A stretch of DNA of 10,587 nucleotides from Ramlibacter sp. GTDB lineage: Bacteria; Pseudomonadota; Gammaproteobacteria; Burkholderiales; Burkholderiaceae_C. Both the position numbers and the translations under genes were made by a program. Of the stretch, positions 1-10,587 are shown one piece after another; within the stretch, counting starts at the first letter, position 1; each line of letters begins with the position of its first letter. Under the pieces are notes generated by a model. That model searched no databases, had not been told where the DNA came from, and worked only from the letters and a program-made list of their open reading frames with translations. The DNA is taken from NCBI GenBank assembly GCA_023701085.1, contig JAMPXR010000044.1, positions 1 to 10,587 of the forward strand, read 5' to 3'.

Positions 1-2592
1 ACCTACATCGACGACACCTGCCTGTACCTGAAGGACAAGACCTGCTCGATCTGCAAGGGCGTGTGCGAGAACGACGCCATCAACTTCAACCAGACGCCCG
101 AGAAGGTGGAGATCAAGGTCGGCGCCATCGTGCTGTCGCCCGGCTTCGACACCTTCGACCCGAAGCTGCGCGGCGACTACGGCTACGGCAGTTACGAGAA
201 CGTGGTCACCAGCCTCGACTTCGAGCGACTACTGTGCGCCACCGGGCCGCACGACGGGCAGATCCTGCGCCCGTCGGACCGCGCGCATCCGCACAAGATC
301 GCCTGGATCCACTGCGTCGGCTCGCGGCAGGTCACGCCCGGCGGCAACAGCTATTGCTCCGCGGTGTGCTGCTCGTACACGCAAAAGCAGGTGATCCTGG
401 CCAAGGACCACCTGCCGGAAATGGAAGCGACGATCTTCCACAACGACATCCGCTCCTACGGCAAGGACTTCGAGCGCTTCTACCAGCGCGCGGAAAAGCT
501 GCCGGACGTGCAGTTCGTGCGCAGCTACGTCTCGGTGGCCGGCGAGGACCCGGTCACGAAGAACGTGCGCATCCGCTACGCCACCCCCGACGGGGGCGTC
601 AAGGAAGAGGAATTCGAGCTGGTCGTGCTTTCGGTCGGCTTGAACCCGCCGCGTGACGCGCAGCGCTTCGCGCAGCAGTTCGGCGTCGAACTCGGGCCGC
701 AGGGGTTCTGCAAGGTCAACCCGGTGAACCCGATCGAGACCACCCGTCCCGGCGTCTTCATCAGCGGCGCGTTCCGCGGGCCGATGGACATCCCTGAGGC
801 CGTGATGACCGCCAGCGGGGCCGGCGCCCTGTCCGGCCAGCTGCTGAAGTCGCGGCGCTGGCGCCTGAGCACCGAACGGGTCTACCCGACCGAGCGCGAC
901 GTGACCAAGGAAGAGCCCAAGGTCGGGGTGTTCGTGTGCCGCTGCGGGGCGAACATCGGCCGCGTGGTCGACGTGCCGGGGGTGGCCGAATACTCCCGCA
1001 CGCTGCCCAATGTCGTGCACGTCGAAGAGAGCCTGTTCGCCTGCGCGACCAACACGGCCAAGGCGATCGGCGACACGGTGCGCGAAAAGGGGCTGAACCG
1101 GGTGGTCGTCGCCGCCTGCACCCCGCGCACGCACGAGCCGCTGTTCCGTGACACGCTGCGCGAAGCGGGCATCAACCAGTACTTCTTCGACATGGCGAAC
1201 ATCCGCGAGCATTGCTCCTGGGTGCACTCCAAGGAGCATGCGGACGCCACGAAGAAGGCCAAGGACATCGTGCGCATGTCGGTGGCGCGCGCCAGCCTGC
1301 TGGAGCCGCTGGACGAATTCGCGCTGCCGGTGAACAAGGCGGCGCTGGTGGTCGGCGGCGGCGTGGCCGGCATGACCAGCGCCCTGACGCTGGCCGAGCA
1401 GGGCTTCCAGACCTACCTGATCGAGAAGGCTTCGGACCTCGGCGGCATGGCCCGGCGCATCCACTACACGGTGGAAGGCCTGGACGTCCAGGCCTGGCTC
1501 AAGGACCTGATGAAGCGGACCTACCGGCACCAGCAGATCCGGGTCATCACCGACGCCACCATCACGGAAGTCTCGGGCTACGTCGGCAATTTCGTCACCA
1601 AGGTCAAGTCCAAGGGGCGGGTGCAGGAGATCAAGCACGGCGCCGCCATCATCGCGACCGGCGCCGACGAGTACAAGCCGACGGAGTACCTGTACGGGCA
1701 GGACGCCCGCGTCATGACGCAGCTCGAGCTGGAGGGCAAGATCGCCGCCGGCGACGATCAGGTGCGCGCCGCGCGCAGCGTCGTCATGATCCAGTGCGTC
1801 GGCTGCCGGCAGCAAGACCGCAACTACTGCTCGCGCGTGTGCTGCAGCGGCGCGATGAAGAACGCCCTGAAGCTCAAGGCCGCCAACAAGGACGTGGACA
1901 TCCACGTGCTGTTCCGCGACATGCGCACTTACGGCTTCAACGAGGACTACTACCGCGAGGCGGCCGGCCAGGACGTGAAGTTCATCCGCTACGAACCGCA
2001 GGACAAGCCGGTGGTGCAGGCCGAAGGCGGCGTGTTGAAAGTCAGCGCGTCCGACCCCATCCTGGGCAAGCGGCTGGAGCTCGAGGCCGATGCCGTCGTG
2101 CTGGCCGCCGCCGTCATCCCGTCGGCCGGCAGCGAGGACACCGCGCGCCTGTTCAAGGTGCCGCTCAGCCCGGACGGATTCTTCCAGGAAGCGCACGTGA
2201 AGCTGCGGCCGGTCGACTTCGCCGCGGAGGGTGTCTACCTGTGCGGCACGGCGCAGTATCCCAAGCACCTGTCCGAGGTGATCGGCCAGGCCTACGGCGC
2301 CGCCGGCCGCGCCCTCACGCTGCTCACGCACGACACCGTGGTGGCGTCCGGCTCGGTCTGCGGCATCGACGAGGACCGGTGCGTGTCCTGCGGGGCCTGC
2401 ATCACCTCCTGCAGTTACGGCGCCATCGACTTCCATGACACGCCGCGCGGCAAGAAAGCCACGATCAATCCCGTGCTGTGCAAGGGCGACGGCCTGTGCA
2501 ACGCGAAGTGCCCCACGGGCGCAGTGTCCCTGAAGCACTACACCAACGACGAAGTGTTCGGCCAGATCGACGCCGCGCTGGCGGCGCTCTAG
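1..2592 (+). CDS. hdrA: HdrA-type FAD/iron-sulfur electron-transfer subunit, double-unit (BamE-like), 5' partial
   Basis: The frame is open from base 1, so the N-terminus lies outside; 863 residues are visible (numbered from base 1). Residues 1-300 are the C-terminal part of a first HdrA unit: a ferredoxin-like cluster (C7, C15, C18, C22), a CVGSR motif (C105) followed by YCSAVCC (C119, C123, C124), and the closing FAD-site segment GVFISGAFRGPMDIPEA (251-267). Residues about 306-863 are a second unit: HdrA N-terminal domain with C313, C315, C348, C373 and C405; Rossmann GGGVAG at 452-457; CVGCR (C599, C602) plus YCSRVCC (C610, C614, C615); then two C-terminal ferredoxin motifs, C794/C797/C800/C804 and C827/D830/C833/C837. 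HdrA proteins carry the FAD that splits or merges electron pairs and pass electrons to HdrB/HdrC-type partners; this is cytosolic, with no membrane segment seen. First gene visible of the five-gene redox operon. BamE-like assignment rests on gene order and is inference; a generic Hdr-type complex is the alternative. Confidence 0.93.
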   Translation, partial: TYIDDTCLYLKDKTCSICKGVCENDAINFNQTPEKVEIKVGAIVLSPGFDTFDPKLRGDYGYGSYENVVTSLDFERLLCATGPHDGQILRPSDRAHPHKIAWIHCVGSRQVTPGGNSYCSAVCCSYTQKQVILAKDHLPEMEATIFHNDIRSYGKDFERFYQRAEKLPDVQFVRSYVSVAGEDPVTKNVRIRYATPDGGVKEEEFELVVLSVGLNPPRDAQRFAQQFGVELGPQGFCKVNPVNPIETTRPGVFISGAFRGPMDIPEAVMTASGAGALSGQLLKSRRWRLSTERVYPTERDVTKEEPKVGVFVCRCGANIGRVVDVPGVAEYSRTLPNVVHVEESLFACATNTAKAIGDTVREKGLNRVVVAACTPRTHEPLFRDTLREAGINQYFFDMANIREHCSWVHSKEHADATKKAKDIVRMSVARASLLEPLDEFALPVNKAALVVGGGVAGMTSALTLAEQGFQTYLIEKASDLGGMARRIHYTVEGLDVQAWLKDLMKRTYRHQQIRVITDATITEVSGYVGNFVTKVKSKGRVQEIKHGAAIIATGADEYKPTEYLYGQDARVMTQLELEGKIAAGDDQVRAARSVVMIQCVGCRQQDRNYCSRVCCSGAMKNALKLKAANKDVDIHVLFRDMRTYGFNEDYYREAAGQDVKFIRYEPQDKPVVQAEGGVLKVSASDPILGKRLELEADAVVLAAAVIPSAGSEDTARLFKVPLSPDGFFQEAHVKLRPVDFAAEGVYLCGTAQYPKHLSEVIGQAYGAAGRALTLLTHDTVVASGSVCGIDEDRCVSCGACITSCSYGAIDFHDTPRGKKATINPVLCKGDGLCNAKCPTGAVSLKHYTNDEVFGQIDAALAAL

Positions 2593-2612
2593 GACCGGAC
2601 GGGAACGAACTC

Positions 2613-3380
2613 ATGGCCACCGCAATCGACTTCAAGCCGACCATCATTGGGTTCCTGTGCAACTGGTGCTGCTACGGCGGCGCCGACCTCGCCGGGGTGT
2701 CGCGCTTCCAGTACCCGCCGTACCTGCGGGTGATCCGGCTGATGTGCTCGGGGCGCGTCGACCTCGAGTTCATCTTCCGCACCTTCGCCAAGAAAGCCGA
2801 CGGCGTGTTCGTCGGCGGCTGCCACCTGAACGACTGCCACTACAACCCCGAGGGCAATTACGACGCGATGGGCAATGTGCTGATGGCCAAGCGCGTCCTG
2901 GAGAAAATCGGCGTGAACCCGGAACGGCTGCGCCTCGAATGGGTGTCGGCGGGCGAAGGCATCCGCTTCGCCGAGATCATGAACGACTTCTCCGCGAAGG
3001 TGAAAAGCCTGGGACGGCTCGGCTCGTCCGAGGGCATCCCGGTGGCCGAGTTGTCGTCGCGGCTGCAGACCGCCGAGGAGCTGGTGCCCTACATCAAGTT
3101 GGTCGAGCGCGAACGGCTGCGGGTGCCGGTGCGCACCGAGGAAGGCTACCGGCAGTTCTTCGGCAGCCCGCAGTTCGACAGCCTGTTCAACGAGCTGATC
3201 CTGGACAAGCTCGTGATGAGCCGGATCATGGGCTTCGTTCGCAGGAAGCCGGTGGCGGCCGCCGAAATCCCGGCCGGGCTGGACCTGGAGCCCTCCGAGG
3301 TCGCGCGGCACCTGCAGCAACTGACCGAGCGCGGGCTGCTCAAGTTCGACGCCGGCCAGAAGCTGGTGGCCGCGGTCTAG
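2613..3380 (+). CDS. mvhD: MvhD/FlpD-type [2Fe-2S] electron-transfer subunit with C-terminal winged-helix-like extension (BamF-like)
   Basis: This 255-residue protein starts at ATG 2613, 20 bp after the HdrA stop, with only a weak GGGA ribosome site (2601-2604). Residues 1-140 match the MvhD family, which carries a [2Fe-2S] cluster and hands electrons from a dehydrogenase or hydrogenase module to HdrA. The family cysteines are present: CNWCC (C16, C19, C20), C45 in LMCSGRVD, and C70/C75 in GGCHLNDCHY. All are TGC codons; some methanococcal homologues have selenocysteine, and no in-frame TGA is seen here. MvhD itself is about 140 residues, so about 115 residues are extra. The last 70 (185-255) look like helices followed by a helix-turn-helix (about 211-248, with EPSEVARHLQQLTERGLL). 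Its role is unknown: a docking module is more likely than DNA binding in this setting. Position between HdrA and the NuoE-like gene fits a bridge between those modules. Confidence 0.92.
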   Translation: MATAIDFKPTIIGFLCNWCCYGGADLAGVSRFQYPPYLRVIRLMCSGRVDLEFIFRTFAKKADGVFVGGCHLNDCHYNPEGNYDAMGNVLMAKRVLEKIGVNPERLRLEWVSAGEGIRFAEIMNDFSAKVKSLGRLGSSEGIPVAELSSRLQTAEELVPYIKLVERERLRVPVRTEEGYRQFFGSPQFDSLFNELILDKLVMSRIMGFVRRKPVAAAEIPAGLDLEPSEVARHLQQLTERGLLKFDAGQKLVAAV

Positions 3381-3410
3381 GGCCGCACACATTGGATTGG
3401 AACCGAGCCC

Positions 3411-3863
3411 ATGGATAGCGCCAACATCGACCTGATCATCGAGCAGCACCGCGGCAAGCCGGGCGACCTGATTCACGTGCTGATGGAAATCCAGCACGTC
3501 AACCACTGGCTGCCCCGCGACGTGCTGCGCAAGGTGGCCGAGGTGCTGGAGATCCCGTTCAGCCGCGTGCTGCGGATCGCCACCCTGTACAAGACCTTCA
3601 GCCTGACGCCCAAGGGGCGCAACGAGGTGCAGGTGTGCAACGGCATCTCCTGCCACCTGCGCGGCGCCAAACAGGTGATGGAGGCGGTGGAACGCGCCAC
3701 CGGCATCAAGGCCGGCGAGACCGACGCCAACTGGCGCTTCAGCCTCGATTCGGGCGCCTGCCTGGGCAGCTGCAGCCTGGGGCCCGAAGTGATCGTCAAC
3801 GGCAAGCATCACGCCCGCATGACCCCCGACAAGGTCGAGGACGTGCTCAAAGCATACGAGTAG
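3411..3863 (+). CDS. NuoE-like (24 kDa) thioredoxin-fold [2Fe-2S] subunit (BamG-like)
   Basis: This 150-residue protein has the complete NuoE signature: N-terminal helical part (about 1-65, with the family pattern ending in VLRIATLYKTF) and a thioredoxin-like [2Fe-2S] domain with C76-x4-C81 and C117-x3-C121. Length agrees with the usual 150-170 residues. In complex I, bidirectional hydrogenases and Bam-type complexes this subunit pairs with the FMN subunit and holds the N1a-type cluster. It begins at ATG 3411, 30 bp after the MvhD stop, with only a weak ribosome site. The next gene follows after 10 bp, so the two partners are likely co-translated. It is not part of a complex I operon: no membrane subunit (NuoH, J-N) or NuoB/C/D/I is near, and the upstream genes are HdrA and MvhD. 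A soluble NAD(P)H-oxidising module is therefore the best reading. Confidence 0.93.
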   Translation: MDSANIDLIIEQHRGKPGDLIHVLMEIQHVNHWLPRDVLRKVAEVLEIPFSRVLRIATLYKTFSLTPKGRNEVQVCNGISCHLRGAKQVMEAVERATGIKAGETDANWRFSLDSGACLGSCSLGPEVIVNGKHHARMTPDKVEDVLKAYE

Positions 3864-3873
3864 GACGGCACAC

Positions 3874-5544
3874 ATGACCAGGCTCCATTCAGCCGCCGAA
3901 CTGGAACAGCTGCGCGCGGGCATCCTCGCCGCGCGCGATCCCGCCCGGCCCTGCATCTCGGTATGCGCCGGCGCGGCCTGCCACGGGCTCGATTCCCTGG
4001 AGGTGGCCGCCGCCTTCCAGGCCGAAGTCGGGAAACTCGGCAGCGGCGCCGCCGTGGACGTGCGCGTCACGGGCTGCCACGGCTATTGCGAAAAGGGGCC
4101 GAACGTGGTGGTCGGCCCGCAGGAGATCTGCTACTTCCAGGTCAAGCCCGAGGATGTGCCCGAGATCGTCGGCAGCACGCTCAAGGGCGAAGTGGTCGAT
4201 CGGCTCGTGTATGTCCATCCCACCACCGGCGAAAAGGCCGTGCACATGAACGAGGTGCCGTTCTACAAGCACCAGACGCGCCTTCTGATCGGTGACAACA
4301 CGCGCATCGACCCGATGCGCATCGACGACTACCTGGCGGTGGGCGGCTACGCGGCGCTCGCCAAGGCGCTGCTGCAGATGACGCCCGAGCAGGTGCTGGG
4401 CGAGGTGAAGAAGGCCAACCTGCGCGGCCGCGGCGGCGGCGGCTTTCCCGCCGGGCAGAAGTGGGAAACCGCGAAGAACGCGCCGGGCGAGGAAAAGTAC
4501 GTCATCGTCAACGGCCACGAAGGCGAGCCCGGGGCGTTCATGGACCGGGCCCTGTTCACCGGCAATCCGCACAAGGTGCTGGAGGGCCTGATCATCGGCG
4601 CCTGGGCGATCGGCGCGCACCGGGGGTTCATCTACACGCGTCACGACTCGCCGCAGCTGATCAAGCACATCCGGCAGGCGCTGGCCCAGGCCGAGGAATA
4701 TGGCCTGCTCGGCGAGAACATTCTCGGTTCGGGGTTCGACTTCCGCGTCGAGCTGCACTTCGACGTGGGCATCTTCGTCTCGGGCGAGTCGAGCGCGCTG
4801 ATGCGTTCGATCGAAGGCATGCCGCCGGAGCCGCGGCCCAAGTACATCCGCACCTCGGTGGCCGGCATCTGGGACCGGCCGAGCAACCTCAACAACGTGG
4901 AGACCTGGGCCAACGTGCCGCAGATCATCAGCCGGGGCGCCGACTGGTACGCGGGCATAGGCACCGAAGGCAGCAAGGGGACCAAGCTGGTGTCGCTGTC
5001 GGGCAACGTGGCCAACAGCGGCGTGGTCGAAGTGCCGATGGGCACGCCGCTGCGCACCATCGTCTGCGACATCGGCGGCGGCGTGGCCGGCGGCAAAGCC
5101 GCCAAGGCCCTGCACTTCGGCGGTCCCATGGGCGGCTCGATCCCGGCCAGCCTGATGGACGCGCCGCTGGACTTCGACGAACTGGCGAAACTGGGTGCGC
5201 CCATAGGCGCCGGCGGCCTGCTCGTGATGGACGAGGACACCGACATGGTGGAGGTGGCGCGCTATTTCCTGGAGTGGCTGACCAACGAGTCCTGCGGCAA
5301 GTGCGTGCCCTGCCGGGAGGGCATGTGGCAGACCATGAAGGTGCTGGAGAACATCAACCACGGCAGGGGCCGCGACGGCGACATCGTGCGCCTGGAAGAC
5401 CTGAACGAAGTGACCAACGCCGCGTGCCTGTGCGCGCTCGGCAAGACGGCGGCCGACCCGCTCAAGAGCATGCTGCGCTATTTCCGGGAAGAGTACGAAG
5501 CGCAGATCGCCCGTGGCGAAACCGCAGGGAGCGCAGCGAAATGA
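3874..5544 (+). CDS. NuoF-like (51 kDa) FMN- and NAD(P)H-binding subunit with N-terminal [2Fe-2S] domain (BamH-like)
   Basis: The 556-residue protein has three parts. Residues about 25-110 are a thioredoxin-like [2Fe-2S] domain (C31, C36, C68, C72), an N-terminal addition as in HoxF/HydB-type proteins and absent from plain NuoF. Residues about 130-460 are the FMN/nucleotide domain, with glycine-rich LRGRGGGGFPAGQKW (183-197), NGHEGEPGAFMDR (213-225), and SGESSALMRSIEG (303-315). Residues about 465-545 carry the N3-type [4Fe-4S] ligands C474, C477, C480 and C520. It would oxidise or reduce NAD(H) or NADP(H) by hydride transfer through FMN. The usual NADE is NGHE here (D to H215) and the usual YICGEET is FVSGESS (second E to S306), so nucleotide preference is uncertain. 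An AGGA (3862-3865) overlapping the previous stop gives a ribosome site 8 bp before ATG 3874. The stop overlaps the next start (ATGA). Confidence 0.95.
   Translation: MTRLHSAAELEQLRAGILAARDPARPCISVCAGAACHGLDSLEVAAAFQAEVGKLGSGAAVDVRVTGCHGYCEKGPNVVVGPQEICYFQVKPEDVPEIVGSTLKGEVVDRLVYVHPTTGEKAVHMNEVPFYKHQTRLLIGDNTRIDPMRIDDYLAVGGYAALAKALLQMTPEQVLGEVKKANLRGRGGGGFPAGQKWETAKNAPGEEKYVIVNGHEGEPGAFMDRALFTGNPHKVLEGLIIGAWAIGAHRGFIYTRHDSPQLIKHIRQALAQAEEYGLLGENILGSGFDFRVELHFDVGIFVSGESSALMRSIEGMPPEPRPKYIRTSVAGIWDRPSNLNNVETWANVPQIISRGADWYAGIGTEGSKGTKLVSLSGNVANSGVVEVPMGTPLRTIVCDIGGGVAGGKAAKALHFGGPMGGSIPASLMDAPLDFDELAKLGAPIGAGGLLVMDEDTDMVEVARYFLEWLTNESCGKCVPCREGMWQTMKVLENINHGRGRDGDIVRLEDLNEVTNAACLCALGKTAADPLKSMLRYFREEYEAQIARGETAGSAAK
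5526..5531 (+). promoter_or_regulatory. Ribosome binding site of the NuoG/HoxU-like gene
   Basis: AGGGAG lies inside the end of the NuoF-like gene, 9 bases before ATG 5541. It fixes that start and, with the ATGA overlap, points to translational coupling of the last two subunits. Confidence 0.6.
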
Positions 5545-6155
5545 GCGAGGTCGTGATGCAGATCGATGGCAAGGAGGTCAAGGCCGCCAGCGGGACGACC
5601 GTGCTGGACGCCGCGCGGCAGGCCGGCATCCACATCCCGACGCTGTGCCACCACGAAAAGCTGGAGGCGTTCGGCGGCTGCCGCATGTGCATGGTGGAAG
5701 TCGAAACGCGCGGCCGCAAGAGCTACGTCGTGTCCTGCCTGTACCCGGTGGCCGGGGACCTCGTCGTGCGCACGCGCTCGGAGCGTGTCGACAAGATCCG
5801 CCGCACCCTGCTGGAGGAACTGCTGGCGCACGCGCCGAATTCGCCCGAGCTGGTGGAACTGGCGCGCGAATACAAGGCCGACCCCAACCGGTTCGAGAAG
5901 GACCCGTCCTTCTGCATCCTGTGCGGACTGTGCGTGCGCTATTGCAACGAGGTCAAGGGCATCAACGCGGTCGACTTCATCGAACGCGGCGCGAGCCGGG
6001 AGATCAGCTTCATCCCCGAGATCGCCGTCAAGGAATGCTGGGACTGCCAGGAGTGCTTCGCGCTGTGCCCGACCTCCTACGCGCAGGCCGCGTACTTCCT
6101 GACCGAGGCGCTCGCCTTTCCGGGCCGGCGCAAGCCCGCGGCGACGGCCGCGTAA
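5541..6155 (+). CDS. NuoG/HoxU-like ferredoxin subunit: [2Fe-2S] plus two [4Fe-4S] clusters, no N5 site (BamI-like)
   Basis: This 204-residue protein corresponds to the N-terminal part of NuoG, without the molybdopterin-like domain. It has a plant-type [2Fe-2S] domain (C36, C47, C50, C66), then a bacterial ferredoxin domain with C125/C128/C131/C135 and C166/C169/C172/C176. Between them (about 88-120), where NuoG and HoxU carry the His-Cys3 site of cluster N5, there is an HAPNSPEL segment with H97 but no cysteine, so that cluster should be absent. The protein would relay electrons from the NuoE/NuoF-like pair towards MvhD/HdrA. Its ATG overlaps the previous stop as ATGA and is preceded by AGGGAG. 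It is the last gene of the operon: the next gene is convergent 24 bp away. Short 2Fe-2S ferredoxin subunits of this form are common beside Hdr and formate dehydrogenase modules, so the Bam-like label depends on the neighbours. Confidence 0.92.
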   Translation: MSEVVMQIDGKEVKAASGTTVLDAARQAGIHIPTLCHHEKLEAFGGCRMCMVEVETRGRKSYVVSCLYPVAGDLVVRTRSERVDKIRRTLLEELLAHAPNSPELVELAREYKADPNRFEKDPSFCILCGLCVRYCNEVKGINAVDFIERGASREISFIPEIAVKECWDCQECFALCPTSYAQAAYFLTEALAFPGRRKPAATAA

Positions 6156-6179: not shown

Positions 6180-7202
6180 TCAGCCCACGCGCTTCTCGAA
6201 CGACAGGCGCTGCGACTGCTGGAAACCGGCGTCGTAGAAGAACCCGAGCAGCCCGAAGTTCTCGCGCGCCACCGAGGTTTCCACGCTCTCCACCCCCAGC
6301 GCCTGCAGGTTCGCGAACAACTGCGACAGGAGCGCGTGGCCGATGCCGCGGTGCTGGTAATCCGGGTCCACGCCTATCGTGTCCAGCACGGCCACCGGCT
6401 CCACGCGCCCGTAGTCGCCGAAGTCGGCGCGCGCCATCACGAAGCCGGCGGCAATGCCGTCCACCCGCGCCACCAGGGACACGCGCACCGCCGAATCGCC
6501 CATGGCTTCCTCGACCAGTTCGCGGATGTAGGCCTCGCGCCTGCGGCCCACCACGCCCTGATCGATGCGGATGATCTCGTCGACGTCGCCGTCCTGGAAG
6601 GCGCGCACGTCGAACCGGTCGCGCGCGTCGAAATCGTTTGCCGCGGCCACGCCATAGCCGACCTCGGCTTCCGAAAAGCCCGTGGCGTGCGCCGGCGCCA
6701 CGGTCGCGTCGCCGTTGTGCGCCGTCACCCGGTTGTGCCGCAGCGCGCATTCCAGCACCATGGTCCGCGAAAATTCGAAGCCCGCGCCATCGAAAAATTC
6801 CATGATGGCGTGGTCGCGCCAGGAGGCGGTCGTGCGGATGACGCCTATGCCCAGGCGTTGCGCCTCGGTCTCGAGCCGGGCCAGCAGGGCAGATCCGATG
6901 CCCCGGCCCTGCTCCGCGGCCACGACGGCAATGGACTCCAGCAGCAGCGCCGGCTCGGCGCGGCCGAATTCGCCCTGCTGCTTGCGCGCCTTGATGAAGC
7001 CGACGAAGCGGCCGTCACGTTCTGCCGAGAACTGCAGATGCCGGCCGGTCTGCGCGAGGGCCGCCTTGAGCCGGCGCTCGAAATACAAATGCCGGGGGTG
7101 ACCCACGATGGCCGCGTCCAGTGCGACCACCGACGCCATGTCTTCGGCTTTGGTGCGTCGAAGCGAGGGCCCGGCAGGTTGTTGCAGTGTTTGGCTGGCC
7201 AA
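6180..7202 (-). CDS. Tandem two-domain GNAT-family N-acetyltransferase
   Basis: The 340-residue protein holds two GNAT acetyltransferase domains in a row. Domain 1 (about 13-150) has the acetyl-CoA pyrophosphate loop EQGRGIGSALL (97-107) and the usual end FFDGAGFEFSRTMVLE. Domain 2 (about 197-338) has YQHRGIGHALL (282-292) and FFYDAGF. A linker of about 45 residues, rich in A, T and G, separates them. GNAT enzymes transfer acetyl from acetyl-CoA to an amine; the substrate cannot be read here. I chose TTG 7202 because an AAGGAG ribosome site sits 6 bases upstream and the -10 element (7240-7245) leaves room for transcription to begin near 7233. A longer in-frame TTG start at 7238 would lie upstream of that start point. 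No ATG exists before domain 1 begins. It converges on the redox operon and diverges from the DUF364 gene, so no functional link to either is shown. Confidence 0.88.
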   Translation of the reverse strand: MASQTLQQPAGPSLRRTKAEDMASVVALDAAIVGHPRHLYFERRLKAALAQTGRHLQFSAERDGRFVGFIKARKQQGEFGRAEPALLLESIAVVAAEQGRGIGSALLARLETEAQRLGIGVIRTTASWRDHAIMEFFDGAGFEFSRTMVLECALRHNRVTAHNGDATVAPAHATGFSEAEVGYGVAAANDFDARDRFDVRAFQDGDVDEIIRIDQGVVGRRREAYIRELVEEAMGDSAVRVSLVARVDGIAAGFVMARADFGDYGRVEPVAVLDTIGVDPDYQHRGIGHALLSQLFANLQALGVESVETSVARENFGLLGFFYDAGFQQSQRLSFEKRVG

Positions 7203-7208
7203 GATGTT

Positions 7209-7214
7209 CTCCTT
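7209..7214 (-). promoter_or_regulatory. Ribosome binding site of the GNAT gene
   Basis: On the - strand this reads AAGGAG, 6 bases before the TTG at 7202. It decides for that unusual start codon over the TTG at 7238, which has no such site. Confidence 0.65.
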
Positions 7215-7239
7215 CGCGCGGGTGGCATCCCTGCGCAAA

Positions 7240-7434: not shown

Positions 7435-8277
7435 ATGATGGACATCGCACACGAACTTCTGACCCTGCTCGAACGCTTCGCGGATCGCGCGCCGCTGCCC
7501 AGGATACGCGCGCTCCATGCGCCGCCGGCGGCGCTGGCCGACACGCGGGCGGGCGAGTTCTGCGCCATCGAGCTGGATGACGGCTCCCTCGGCCTGAGCT
7601 TCGTCCTGCTCGATGCGTCGAGCCGGCGTCTGGTCACCGATCCGGGCGACGCCGGCATCGAACTGGCGGGCGCGGACGCGCTGGCCGTCGCGCGCTGGTT
7701 CACCGGCACGCAGGGGGCACGCCGGTCGCTCGGCTTCGCGGCGATCAACGCGCTCAGCCGCTGCCTGTTCGATCGTGCCGGTTTCCAGCCGCCCGCCAGC
7801 ACCGACTCGATCGGCAGCATCGAACCGGTGGCGACCGATCACATCGGCATGATCGGCCTGTTCCCGCCGCTGATCAAGGACATCGTGAGTTCCGGCGCCA
7901 GGCTGACCGTGGTCGAACTGCGGCCCGATCTGGCGGGCGACCACGACGGCTACCGCGTGGCCCTGGACCGCAACGAGCTGTCGTCGTGCAACAAGGTGAT
8001 CGCGACCAGCAGCATGCTGCTCAACGGCAGCCTGGACACCATGCTGTCGGCCTGCTCGCAGGCGCGCAGCTTCGCGCTGATCGGCCCCGGCGCCGGCTGC
8101 CTGCCCGATCCGCTGTTTCGCCGCGGCGTCACGCTGATGGGCGGCACCTGGATCACCGACCGCGAGGCGTTTTGTGCCGCGCTCGCGGTGGGCGCGTCCT
8201 GGACGGCGGCCGCGCGCAAGTTCGCGCTGCGCCGGCAAGACTATCCCGGCGCCCAAGCGCTGCTCGAGCGCCTTTAG
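7435..8277 (+). CDS. DUF4213/DUF364 family protein (putative metal-chelation domain)
   Basis: This 280-residue protein resembles the DUF364 family. The N-terminal part (about 1-110) corresponds to the enolase-like DUF4213 domain. The C-terminal part (about 120-265) corresponds to the Rossmann-like DUF364 domain, with typical stretches IGMIGLFPPLIKDI (137-150), LTVVELRPD (157-165), CNKVIATSSMLLNG (185-198), ALIGPGAGCLPDPLF (214-228) and GVTLMGGTWITD (231-242). The family structure from Desulfitobacterium led its authors to propose heavy-metal chelation; no biochemical function is established. No signal peptide is seen, so it is probably cytosolic. Two ATG codons lie side by side at 7435 and 7438, preceded by GGAAAG; either could start. 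The same frame opens at 7294, but the extra 47 residues are arginine-, alanine- and proline-rich and unlike the family. No convincing + strand promoter was found in 7203-7434. Its closeness to a possible tungsten-enzyme operon is suggestive only. Confidence 0.85.
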   Translation: MMDIAHELLTLLERFADRAPLPRIRALHAPPAALADTRAGEFCAIELDDGSLGLSFVLLDASSRRLVTDPGDAGIELAGADALAVARWFTGTQGARRSLGFAAINALSRCLFDRAGFQPPASTDSIGSIEPVATDHIGMIGLFPPLIKDIVSSGARLTVVELRPDLAGDHDGYRVALDRNELSSCNKVIATSSMLLNGSLDTMLSACSQARSFALIGPGAGCLPDPLFRRGVTLMGGTWITDREAFCAALAVGASWTAAARKFALRRQDYPGAQALLERL

Positions 8278-8590: not shown

Positions 8591-10587
8591 TCAGACCAGG
8601 TTGCGCAGCTCGCGCAGCGCCACCGACAGCATGGCCAGGTCCGGGCTCGCCGTGTCCGCCAGCTCGGCCACCAGACGCCGGGCCCGCGCGAAGGCCGCCG
8701 GATTGCGCGCTTCCCATGACGAAAGCCTGTCCCCCGCCGCACCCACGTGGCGGCTGACGGCGTCCAGCGCGATGGAGCGCTGCAAGTCGGCCAGGTCGTC
8801 GGCGAGCGCCACCTTGGCGAGGCTTTGCCAGTGGGTGTCGGCCGGCAGCAGCTCGATCTGCTGGCGCAGTCTTTCCAGGCCCAGCCGCTCCCCGATCCCG
8901 AAATGCACCTCACTGGTGGCGTCCAGCGGAGCATGCGCCGATTCGGCGATTTCGGCGATGTCCAGCGCGCTGAACAGGCGGTCCGCGGCGCTCACCTGCC
9001 GCGCCAGGTCGCGCGGCACGCCGGCACGCATCCAGCTGGCGGCCTGGGCGGAATCCTCGCCCTCGGACTCCAGGCGCGCGCGCAGGGACGCGACCGCCGG
9101 CAGCAGCCGCTGCGCGCCCTGCTCCAGGGGCTCCTGCAGCCGCCGCGACCGAAGGAACCAGGTCGTGGCGCGCGCCATGAGCCGGCGCCACTCGATCAGC
9201 AGCTCGCACTGCACGCTGTCGGGCACCCGGTTGTCCAGCGCCTCGATGCGCTGCCACAGTTCCACGCTGGCGAAGACTTCGCGCGCCAGCAGGTAGGCCC
9301 GCACGACCTGGGGCGGCGCCGCGCCGGTCAGCTCCGACAGGCGGTGCACCAGCGTAGCTCCCACGCGGTTGATCATGCTGTTGAGCACATGCGTGGCGAT
9401 GATCTCGCGGCGCAGCGGATGGCGCGGGATGTAATCGCCCCAGGCGCTGCGCAGCGCGGCCGGGAAGTAGCGTTGCAAGGCGCTGGCGATCCAGGGGTCC
9501 TCCGGCAGATCGGACGCGATCAGCTCGTCCGACAGCCACATCTTGCTGTAGGCCAGCAGCACGGCCTGCTCGGGCGTGGCCAGTCCCAGCCCCTTGGCCT
9601 TGCGCTCGGCCAGTTCGTCGTCCGTCGGCAGGAACTCGATGGCCCGGTTCAGCCGTCCGTTCTTTTCGAGGAAGCGCATGAAGCGCGCCTGCTCGTCGAG
9701 CTGCGTCGCCCAGCGGGAGCGGCCGATCGACAGGGCCTGGGTCTGGAAATAGTTGTCGCGCAGCACCAGCGCCGCCACCTCGTCGGTCATCGTCGGCAGC
9801 AACGCGTTGCGCTGCTCCTGGGTGAGCTTGCCGTCGGCCACCGGCAGGCCGAGCAGGATCTTGATGTTGACCTCATGGTCGGAGGTGTCCACGCCGGCCG
9901 AGTTGTCGATCGCGTCGGTGCACAGGCGCACGCCCGCCAGCGCCGCCTCGACGCGGCCGCGCTGGGTCAGCCCCAGGTTGCCGCCCTCCGCGACCACCTT
10001 GCAGCGCAGCTGGCCGCCGTCGATGCGCACGGCGTCGTTGGCCCGGTCGCCGACCTCGAGATGGGTCTCGCTGCCGGCCTTGACATAGGTGCCGATGCCG
10101 CCGTTGTAGAGCAGGTCCACCGGCGCCTTCAGGATGGCGGACACCAGTTCGGTCGGCGTCAGGCGCTCGGCGTCGATGCCGAGCGCGGCGCGCGCCTGCG
10201 GGGAGATCGGAATGGACTTTTCCGAACGCGCCCAGACGCCGCCGCCTTCTGAAATCAGCTTGGCATCGTAGTCGGCCCATGAGGAGCGCGGCAGCGCGAA
10301 CAAGCGCTGGCGCTCCACGAAGGCCGGCGCGGCCTGCGGCTGCGGGTCGATGAAGACATGGCGGTGATCGAACGCCGCCACCAGCCGGATGTGCCGGGAC
10401 AGCAGCATGCCGTTGCCGAACACGTCGCCCGACATGTCGCCGATGCCCACGGCGGTGAAGTCGGTGGTCTGCGTGTCCACGCCCATTTCACGGAAATGGC
10501 GCTTGACGCTCTCCCAGGCGCCGCGCGCGGTGATCCCCATCGCCTTGTGGTCGTAGCCGGCGCTGCCGCCCGAGGCGAAGGCATCGC
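8591..10587 (-). CDS. NAD-dependent glutamate dehydrogenase, large (about 180 kDa) class, C-terminal part
   Basis: The reading frame enters from the right edge and ends at TGA 8591-8593, giving the last 664 residues of a protein that is usually about 1,600 long. The family oxidises L-glutamate to 2-oxoglutarate and ammonium with NAD, a mainly catabolic cytosolic reaction. The visible part begins in the catalytic domain: FASGGSAGYDHKAMGITARG (3-22, counting the first full codon as 1), the nucleotide-binding GIGDMSGDVFGNG (47-59), YNGGIGTYVK (160-169), VAEGGNLGLTQRGR (198-211) and DAIDNSAGVDTSDHEVN (224-240). The remaining roughly 420 residues are the helical C-terminal domain typical of this class, ending LRNLV. 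No frameshift or internal stop is seen. A terminator follows at 8483-8513. It is convergent with the DUF364 gene and shows no operon link with the redox cluster; it mainly indicates a proteobacterial-type chromosome. Confidence 0.95.
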   Translation of the reverse strand, partial: DAFASGGSAGYDHKAMGITARGAWESVKRHFREMGVDTQTTDFTAVGIGDMSGDVFGNGMLLSRHIRLVAAFDHRHVFIDPQPQAAPAFVERQRLFALPRSSWADYDAKLISEGGGVWARSEKSIPISPQARAALGIDAERLTPTELVSAILKAPVDLLYNGGIGTYVKAGSETHLEVGDRANDAVRIDGGQLRCKVVAEGGNLGLTQRGRVEAALAGVRLCTDAIDNSAGVDTSDHEVNIKILLGLPVADGKLTQEQRNALLPTMTDEVAALVLRDNYFQTQALSIGRSRWATQLDEQARFMRFLEKNGRLNRAIEFLPTDDELAERKAKGLGLATPEQAVLLAYSKMWLSDELIASDLPEDPWIASALQRYFPAALRSAWGDYIPRHPLRREIIATHVLNSMINRVGATLVHRLSELTGAAPPQVVRAYLLAREVFASVELWQRIEALDNRVPDSVQCELLIEWRRLMARATTWFLRSRRLQEPLEQGAQRLLPAVASLRARLESEGEDSAQAASWMRAGVPRDLARQVSAADRLFSALDIAEIAESAHAPLDATSEVHFGIGERLGLERLRQQIELLPADTHWQSLAKVALADDLADLQRSIALDAVSRHVGAAGDRLSSWEARNPAAFARARRLVAELADTASPDLAMLSVALRELRNLV

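Follow-up and report, generated by a model that had tools for sequence, protein, structure and literature searches.

Electron-input genes of a probable class II benzoyl-CoA reductase in a seemingly facultative, burkholderialean host

The window analysed here, the whole stretch of 10,587 bp that makes up contig JAMPXR010000044.1 of Ramlibacter sp. (C373), carries five contiguous plus-strand genes encoding HdrA-, MvhD-, NuoE-, NuoF- and NuoG/HoxU-like proteins in this order, with gaps of 20, 30, 10 and -4 bp. A first-pass annotation, made from the letters alone, had described this arrangement correctly and had taken the genes for bamE to bamI of class II benzoyl-CoA reductase (Bam) in a proteobacterium. 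The contig belongs to a fragmented metagenome-assembled genome (MAG; 3.10 Mb in 543 contigs, 80.85% complete, 2.24% contaminated), and its base 1 is an assembly end, so the left border of the module is artificial. About 178 amino acids of the BamE N-terminus are missing, and the remainder is 89% identical to the full-length frame of 1041 amino acids in G005, a genome of the same genus. Quite probably, the module makes up the electron-input half of a canonical benzoyl-CoA reductase of class II, the tungsten type that needs no ATP, and its host is a facultative anaerobe and probably a burkholderialean; the assignment to Bam is well supported by comparison with homologues.

Cysteine residues of the five proteins are conserved to at least 85% in 37-71 homologues per subunit, rows of <45% identity or <80% length being excluded, except at positions 398 (2%) and 518 (19%) of BamH. 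In BamE, 29 cysteines are kept in 92-100% of 71 rows; six of BamF are kept in 97-100% of 37 rows, four of BamG in 94-100% of 52, and 12 of BamI in 100% of 44. In addition, the ratio of nonsynonymous to synonymous substitution (dN/dS) between the window and G005 is 0.147 for bamE, 0.153 for bamF, 0.157 for bamG, 0.121 for bamH and 0.247 for bamI. Conserved cysteines together with dN/dS of 0.12-0.25 indicate that these frames are not a product of chance.

The genes that lie beyond the contig end can be read in relatives. When BamE was searched in 99 genomes besides the window's own, near-full matches of 87-90% identity were found in four genomes of the same genus (G005, G043, G044 and, in two pieces, G051), while the remaining long matches had 30-36% identity. 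An unbroken bamB1-C-D-E-F-G-H-I operon is present in G005 (L113), G043 (L114) and G044 (L115), and that of G051 is divided by a contig end into B1-C-D-E part (L116) and E part-F-G-H-I (L117). All four same-genus genomes with the module therefore have bamB-C-D directly upstream of it, as the proposal of the first-pass annotation implies. BamB1 of G005 matches Geobacter BamB (PDB 4Z3W) with 1140 bits over residues 1-651, the next family being aldehyde oxidoreductases (AOR) at no more than 199 bits. In Geobacter BamB, Cys322 is described as the tungsten ligand, and Glu251, His255, Glu257 and His260 are placed at the substrate-free zinc site and the proton path (PMC12096430). These five residues are kept in the BamB1 of 4/4 same-genus relatives. 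Across the 16 named Pseudomonadota BamB1 rows besides these four (L005-L031), Glu251, Glu257 and His260 are kept in every row and Cys322 in 15, L009 being unaligned there.

Phylogenetic trees place the module in the same way. In the BamB tree (65 rows; excluded were rows of <450 amino acids, the L116 BamB2 among them, as well as L029 and one AOR row that served as outgroup instead), all 20 Pseudomonadota BamB1 proteins form one clade with support of 100/99, within a BamB1 set that includes Geobacter, other Thermodesulfobacteriota, Chloroflexota and more. As BamF gave just 23 columns in a joint tree of 43 complete E-I sets, trees of single subunits were made, a check that the first-pass annotation had itself named. 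In the trees of E, F, G, H and I (93, 81, 55, 48 and 46 rows), each window protein falls among same-genus rows inside a Pseudomonadota Bam clade of 26, 23, 20, 17 and 17 rows, respectively, with support by the Shimodaira-Hasegawa-like approximate likelihood ratio test of 100, 100, 96, 100 and 99 after re-rooting; some forks beside the window are poorly supported (75, 84, 42, 35). Such a placement would follow if bam had entered Pseudomonadota mainly once. The sole other row inside the clade, for BamE and BamF, is L006, titled Deltaproteobacteria, which may be a mixed or mislabelled bin or a case of recent transfer.

A scan of GTDB genomes provided the named loci, which are the best 80 matches (79 loci) and not a census. 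All eight bam genes stand in order in 7/21 of the Pseudomonadota-titled loci among them (L005, L008, L012, L013, L021, L022 and L031, out of L005, L007-L025 and L031), most others being broken by contig ends, and the named loci nearest to the window are L005 and L007, on which the probable placement of the host in Burkholderiales is based. Some loci run counter to this layout: in L014 and L017 bamC and bamE have no bamD between them, although L014 shows a weakly bamD-like stretch behind bamI at the contig end, and bamC is not preceded by bamB1 in L023 or in the second of the two sets of L024. A BamE search of plasmids returned two distant records only.

The window's host does not look strictly anaerobic by gene content. 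The same MAG encodes boxB (897 bits), a partial narG (1789 bits) and members of the heme-copper oxidase family (best 543 bits), a family that includes nitric oxide reductases. Moreover, the ATP-dependent class I reductase that the first-pass annotation had expected in such a host is indeed represented: class I subunits B, A and D lie on C533 with 787, 710 and 427 bits, and oah (623 bits) and had (579 bits) on C159, all above curated cut-offs. By reading frames, a ferredoxin is assigned to C533 and a 2-oxoacid:ferredoxin oxidoreductase gene to C159. In G005, G043 and G044 both HGD-D halves of the class I reductase are present, and a dch gene (392 bits) occurs in G005. Cut-offs are passed by COX1 and narG in all five Bam genomes and by boxB and oah (TIGR03200) in four each; in G044 the boxB match is cut by a contig end, and oah fails but may be cut off, as its dch sits at base 101 of the contig. 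In G043, a genome that is 100% complete and 1% contaminated, boxB (592 kb) and bam (~871-885 kb) reside on one contig of 1,277,738 bp. Judged by genes and not by physiology, the Bam-positive bacteria seem to be facultatively anaerobic and to have three ways of processing benzoyl-CoA. A second class I-like reductase set was also observed in G043 (L166, 8135-12841) and, by reading, in G044 (L160, 8414-13126); the C, B and A matches of L166 fall below the curated benzoyl-CoA reductase cut-offs, and this set is perhaps for another substrate.

Within the genus, BcrB was found in 16/60 genomes at E <= 1e-30, including the four Bam genomes and that of the window. If the latter is scored as Bam-positive by its E-I genes, BcrB occurs in 5/5 Bam-positive and 11/55 other genomes (Fisher p = 0.0008, kinship uncorrected).

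Several observations weigh against the Bam interpretation. BamB was not found in the window's MAG by protein search, nor were bamB, bamC and bamD by DNA search; all that these searches returned were AOR pieces, the contig edge of 67 bp and a match of 29 bp, so that the host's own operon is incomplete as assembled. On the class I side, bcrC was not found in the MAG, whose single HGD-D match (BcrB) is at a contig end. His255, described as invariant in the available text of PMC12096430, occurs in 0/16 of the named Pseudomonadota BamB1 rows, where the position is Val in 14, Ala in one and Phe in one. Finally, BamB was detected at E <= 1e-100 in 0/399 genomes of an even order-wide sample, for which at most two candidates per genome were scored where shown; the same BamB query gave matches of E = 0 elsewhere. 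As a side observation, the MAG carries an AOR-like gene with 146 bits to BamB (L167, G000:C141), accompanied on reading by a small MoaD-like frame, and G005 has a further AOR-family gene near bam (L113 340-2510; AFOR_C, 398 bits).

The mechanism proposed for the host complex, including its reaction, bifurcation, use of tungsten and direction, would be that of the characterised Geobacter Bam, by analogy with which it is drawn. In the latter, BamB has been described to reduce the ring by hydrogen-atom transfer from tungsten-bound water and to be fed by BamC-I via flavin-based bifurcation, with reduced ferredoxin as the putative donor and NAD or menaquinone as proposed high-potential acceptors (PMC12096430, PMC11971306). 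In the host, BamG, BamH and BamI would exchange electrons with NAD(H), BamE and BamF would form the flavin-based bifurcation core together with BamD, and BamB and BamC would reduce benzoyl-CoA to cyclohexa-1,5-diene-1-carbonyl-CoA at a tungsten-bis-metallopterin site, putatively with reduced ferredoxin as donor. The window would contribute G, H and I, the arm that faces NAD(H), and, with E and F, the larger part of the flavin core. The products would enter the had/oah pathway, which the genome's class I reductase would share, and a division of labour is conceivable in which Bam works under a shortage of energy or ATP and class I under ample nitrate.

The alternative that survives best, unlikely as it is, holds that the Bam-type complex acts on another aryl-CoA or in reverse and that class I handles benzoyl-CoA. 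It draws on the class I genes that accompany oah and had in the same MAG and in relatives, on the reverse activity noted for BamBC in the available text of PMC11971306, and on BamB2C2, another catalytic pair that relatives encode next to the operon. BamB2 of G005 scores 789 bits against 4Z3W, and in all four relatives its site residues are W/E/D/H/C, altered from those of BamB1; among the best 80 matches, several loci of Bacillota and others have separate C-I sets headed by a BamB2-like gene. However, in none of the four same-genus genomes has BamB1 lost any of the five named site residues, and it aligns with Geobacter BamB end to end. As for the arrangement of the pair, an HD-domain gene and bamB2 are divergent from bamB1 in L113-L116, with bamC2 also in L113-L115 (L116 is cut). 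A broader and tentative picture, which is possible but doubtful, combines these elements: some facultative nitrate-respiring betaproteobacteria may have Box, an ATP-driven class I and a bifurcating tungsten class II reductase in one cell and switch among them by oxygen and energy supply, and in this genus one BamDEFGHI engine may serve two exchangeable catalytic heads, of which BamB1C1 would act on benzoyl-CoA and BamB2C2 on a different aryl-CoA.

It is very unlikely that the operon is a decaying relic of past transfer from which no enzyme is made. Rarity speaks for decay, as a search at E <= 1e-60 found BamB in only 4/60 genomes of the genus, with the window's genome scored among the 56 misses; open frames, conserved cysteines and the dN/dS values led to its rejection, and the full operon is present in relatives.

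Hard to sustain, too, is the other option offered by the first-pass annotation, an Hdr-linked NAD(P)H complex that would serve some other catalytic partner. HdrA, MvhD and NuoEF parts recur in other complexes, these parts of the window proteins give NCBIfam cross-hits, and bamB was not found in the MAG. The idea nevertheless gained no support and is rejected as highly improbable, because bamB1, with bamC and bamD, is directly upstream in 4/4 same-genus operons, and the window proteins are inside the Bam clade. Lastly, misbinning of a contig from an anaerobe, which would make the host claim wrong, would fit a fragmented MAG with 2.24% contamination and a contig that itself has no class I, box or respiration gene, but it is scarcely credible given that the window subunits group with same-genus genomes, that the GNAT gene beside bamI is common to all four (71-78% identity), and that bam and boxB share one contig in G043, on which ground it was rejected.

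The neighbourhood of the module is listed in Table 1. The gene for a large NAD-glutamate dehydrogenase, which the first-pass annotation had noted as a flank, is present in part. The GNAT gene beside bamI is shared by the window with L113, L114, L115, L117 and L005, and the DUF364 and glutamate dehydrogenase neighbours have no match in the related loci compared.

Table 1. Genes of the window and the bamB2 region of same-genus relatives; domains of window proteins were assigned with Pfam/NCBIfam profiles
Feature	Position	Strand	Description
bamE, C-terminal part	1-2592	+	863 aa; no start codon, runs off contig; HdrA-like, two FAD modules and ferredoxin clusters (4Fe-4S)
bamF	2613-3380	+	MvhD/FlpD (FlpD 167.6 bits); C-terminal helix-turn-helix-like part (HTH_20 27.7 bits)
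bamG	3411-3863	+	NuoE-like [2Fe-2S] subunit, 153.5 bits
bamH	3874-5544	+	NuoF-like (Nuo51) FMN/NAD(H) subunit, N-terminal [2Fe-2S] domain; Complex1_51K 132 bits, NADH_4Fe-4S 97 bits
bamI	5541-6155	+	NuoG/HoxU-like N-terminal ferredoxin subunit; Fer2_4 69.9 bits
Two-domain GNAT acetyltransferase	6180-7238	-	adjoins bamI, opposite strand
DUF364/DUF4213 protein	~7435-8277	+	
Large NAD-glutamate dehydrogenase, part	8591-10585	-	508 and 367 bits
HD gene/bamB2/bamC2 region	L113 2737-6134; L114 2878-6236; L115 13574-16965; L116 1-2059	divergent	no own D-I genes

Class II reductases have been placed in strict or obligate anaerobes, and those of class I in facultative ones (PMC5378359, PMC12096430, PMC11971306, PMC12521323), or class II 'mostly' in strict anaerobes (PMC5400083), and reviews explain this split by energy yield. 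Against this background, the complex belongs to a known kind and looks canonical by its genes, whereas its host is unexpected. Searches of an open-access library, which mostly lacks subscription papers, turned up no account of a complete betaproteobacterial bam operon. Genomes that encode both classes and an aerobic route make the energy-yield explanation testable in one organism, by asking which reductase is made and when. In addition, a facultative host might ease the production and mutation of the large, oxygen-sensitive Bam complex, and surveys that take bamB to indicate strictly anaerobic degraders would include these bacteria in their counts.

Among known systems, BamBCDEFGHI of Geobacter metallireducens, whose BamB is placed in WOR clade 62 (PMC13328260), is alike in gene set and order, in iron-sulfur cysteines and, as read in relatives, in BamB site residues. 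The difference lies in the host, whose MAG here combines class I genes with boxB, narG and members of the heme-copper oxidase family, and in His255, which is replaced in each of the 16 named Pseudomonadota rows besides those of the four relatives. The class I reductase BcrCBAD (Thauera type), whose B, A and D subunits are encoded in the MAG, catalyses the same reaction, but it is ATP-dependent, has unrelated subunits and lies here on another contig, C533. Rhodoferax ferrireducens is likewise a facultative betaproteobacterium with bam-like genes; as far as described in the available text of PMC2755013, these are moderately similar and scattered and no class I was found, whereas the relatives here have a contiguous operon together with class I. 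In Desulfatiglandales MAGs, class I and class II subunits are likewise both widespread within one group, so co-occurrence as such is not new; class I is mostly of the bzd type there, and boxB goes unmentioned in the available text (PMC10570749). In a nitrate-reducing benzene consortium, bam-like transcripts point to the use of class II under nitrate reduction, and these were assigned to Peptococcaceae-like bacteria (PMC5852087), unlike the Betaproteobacteria considered here.

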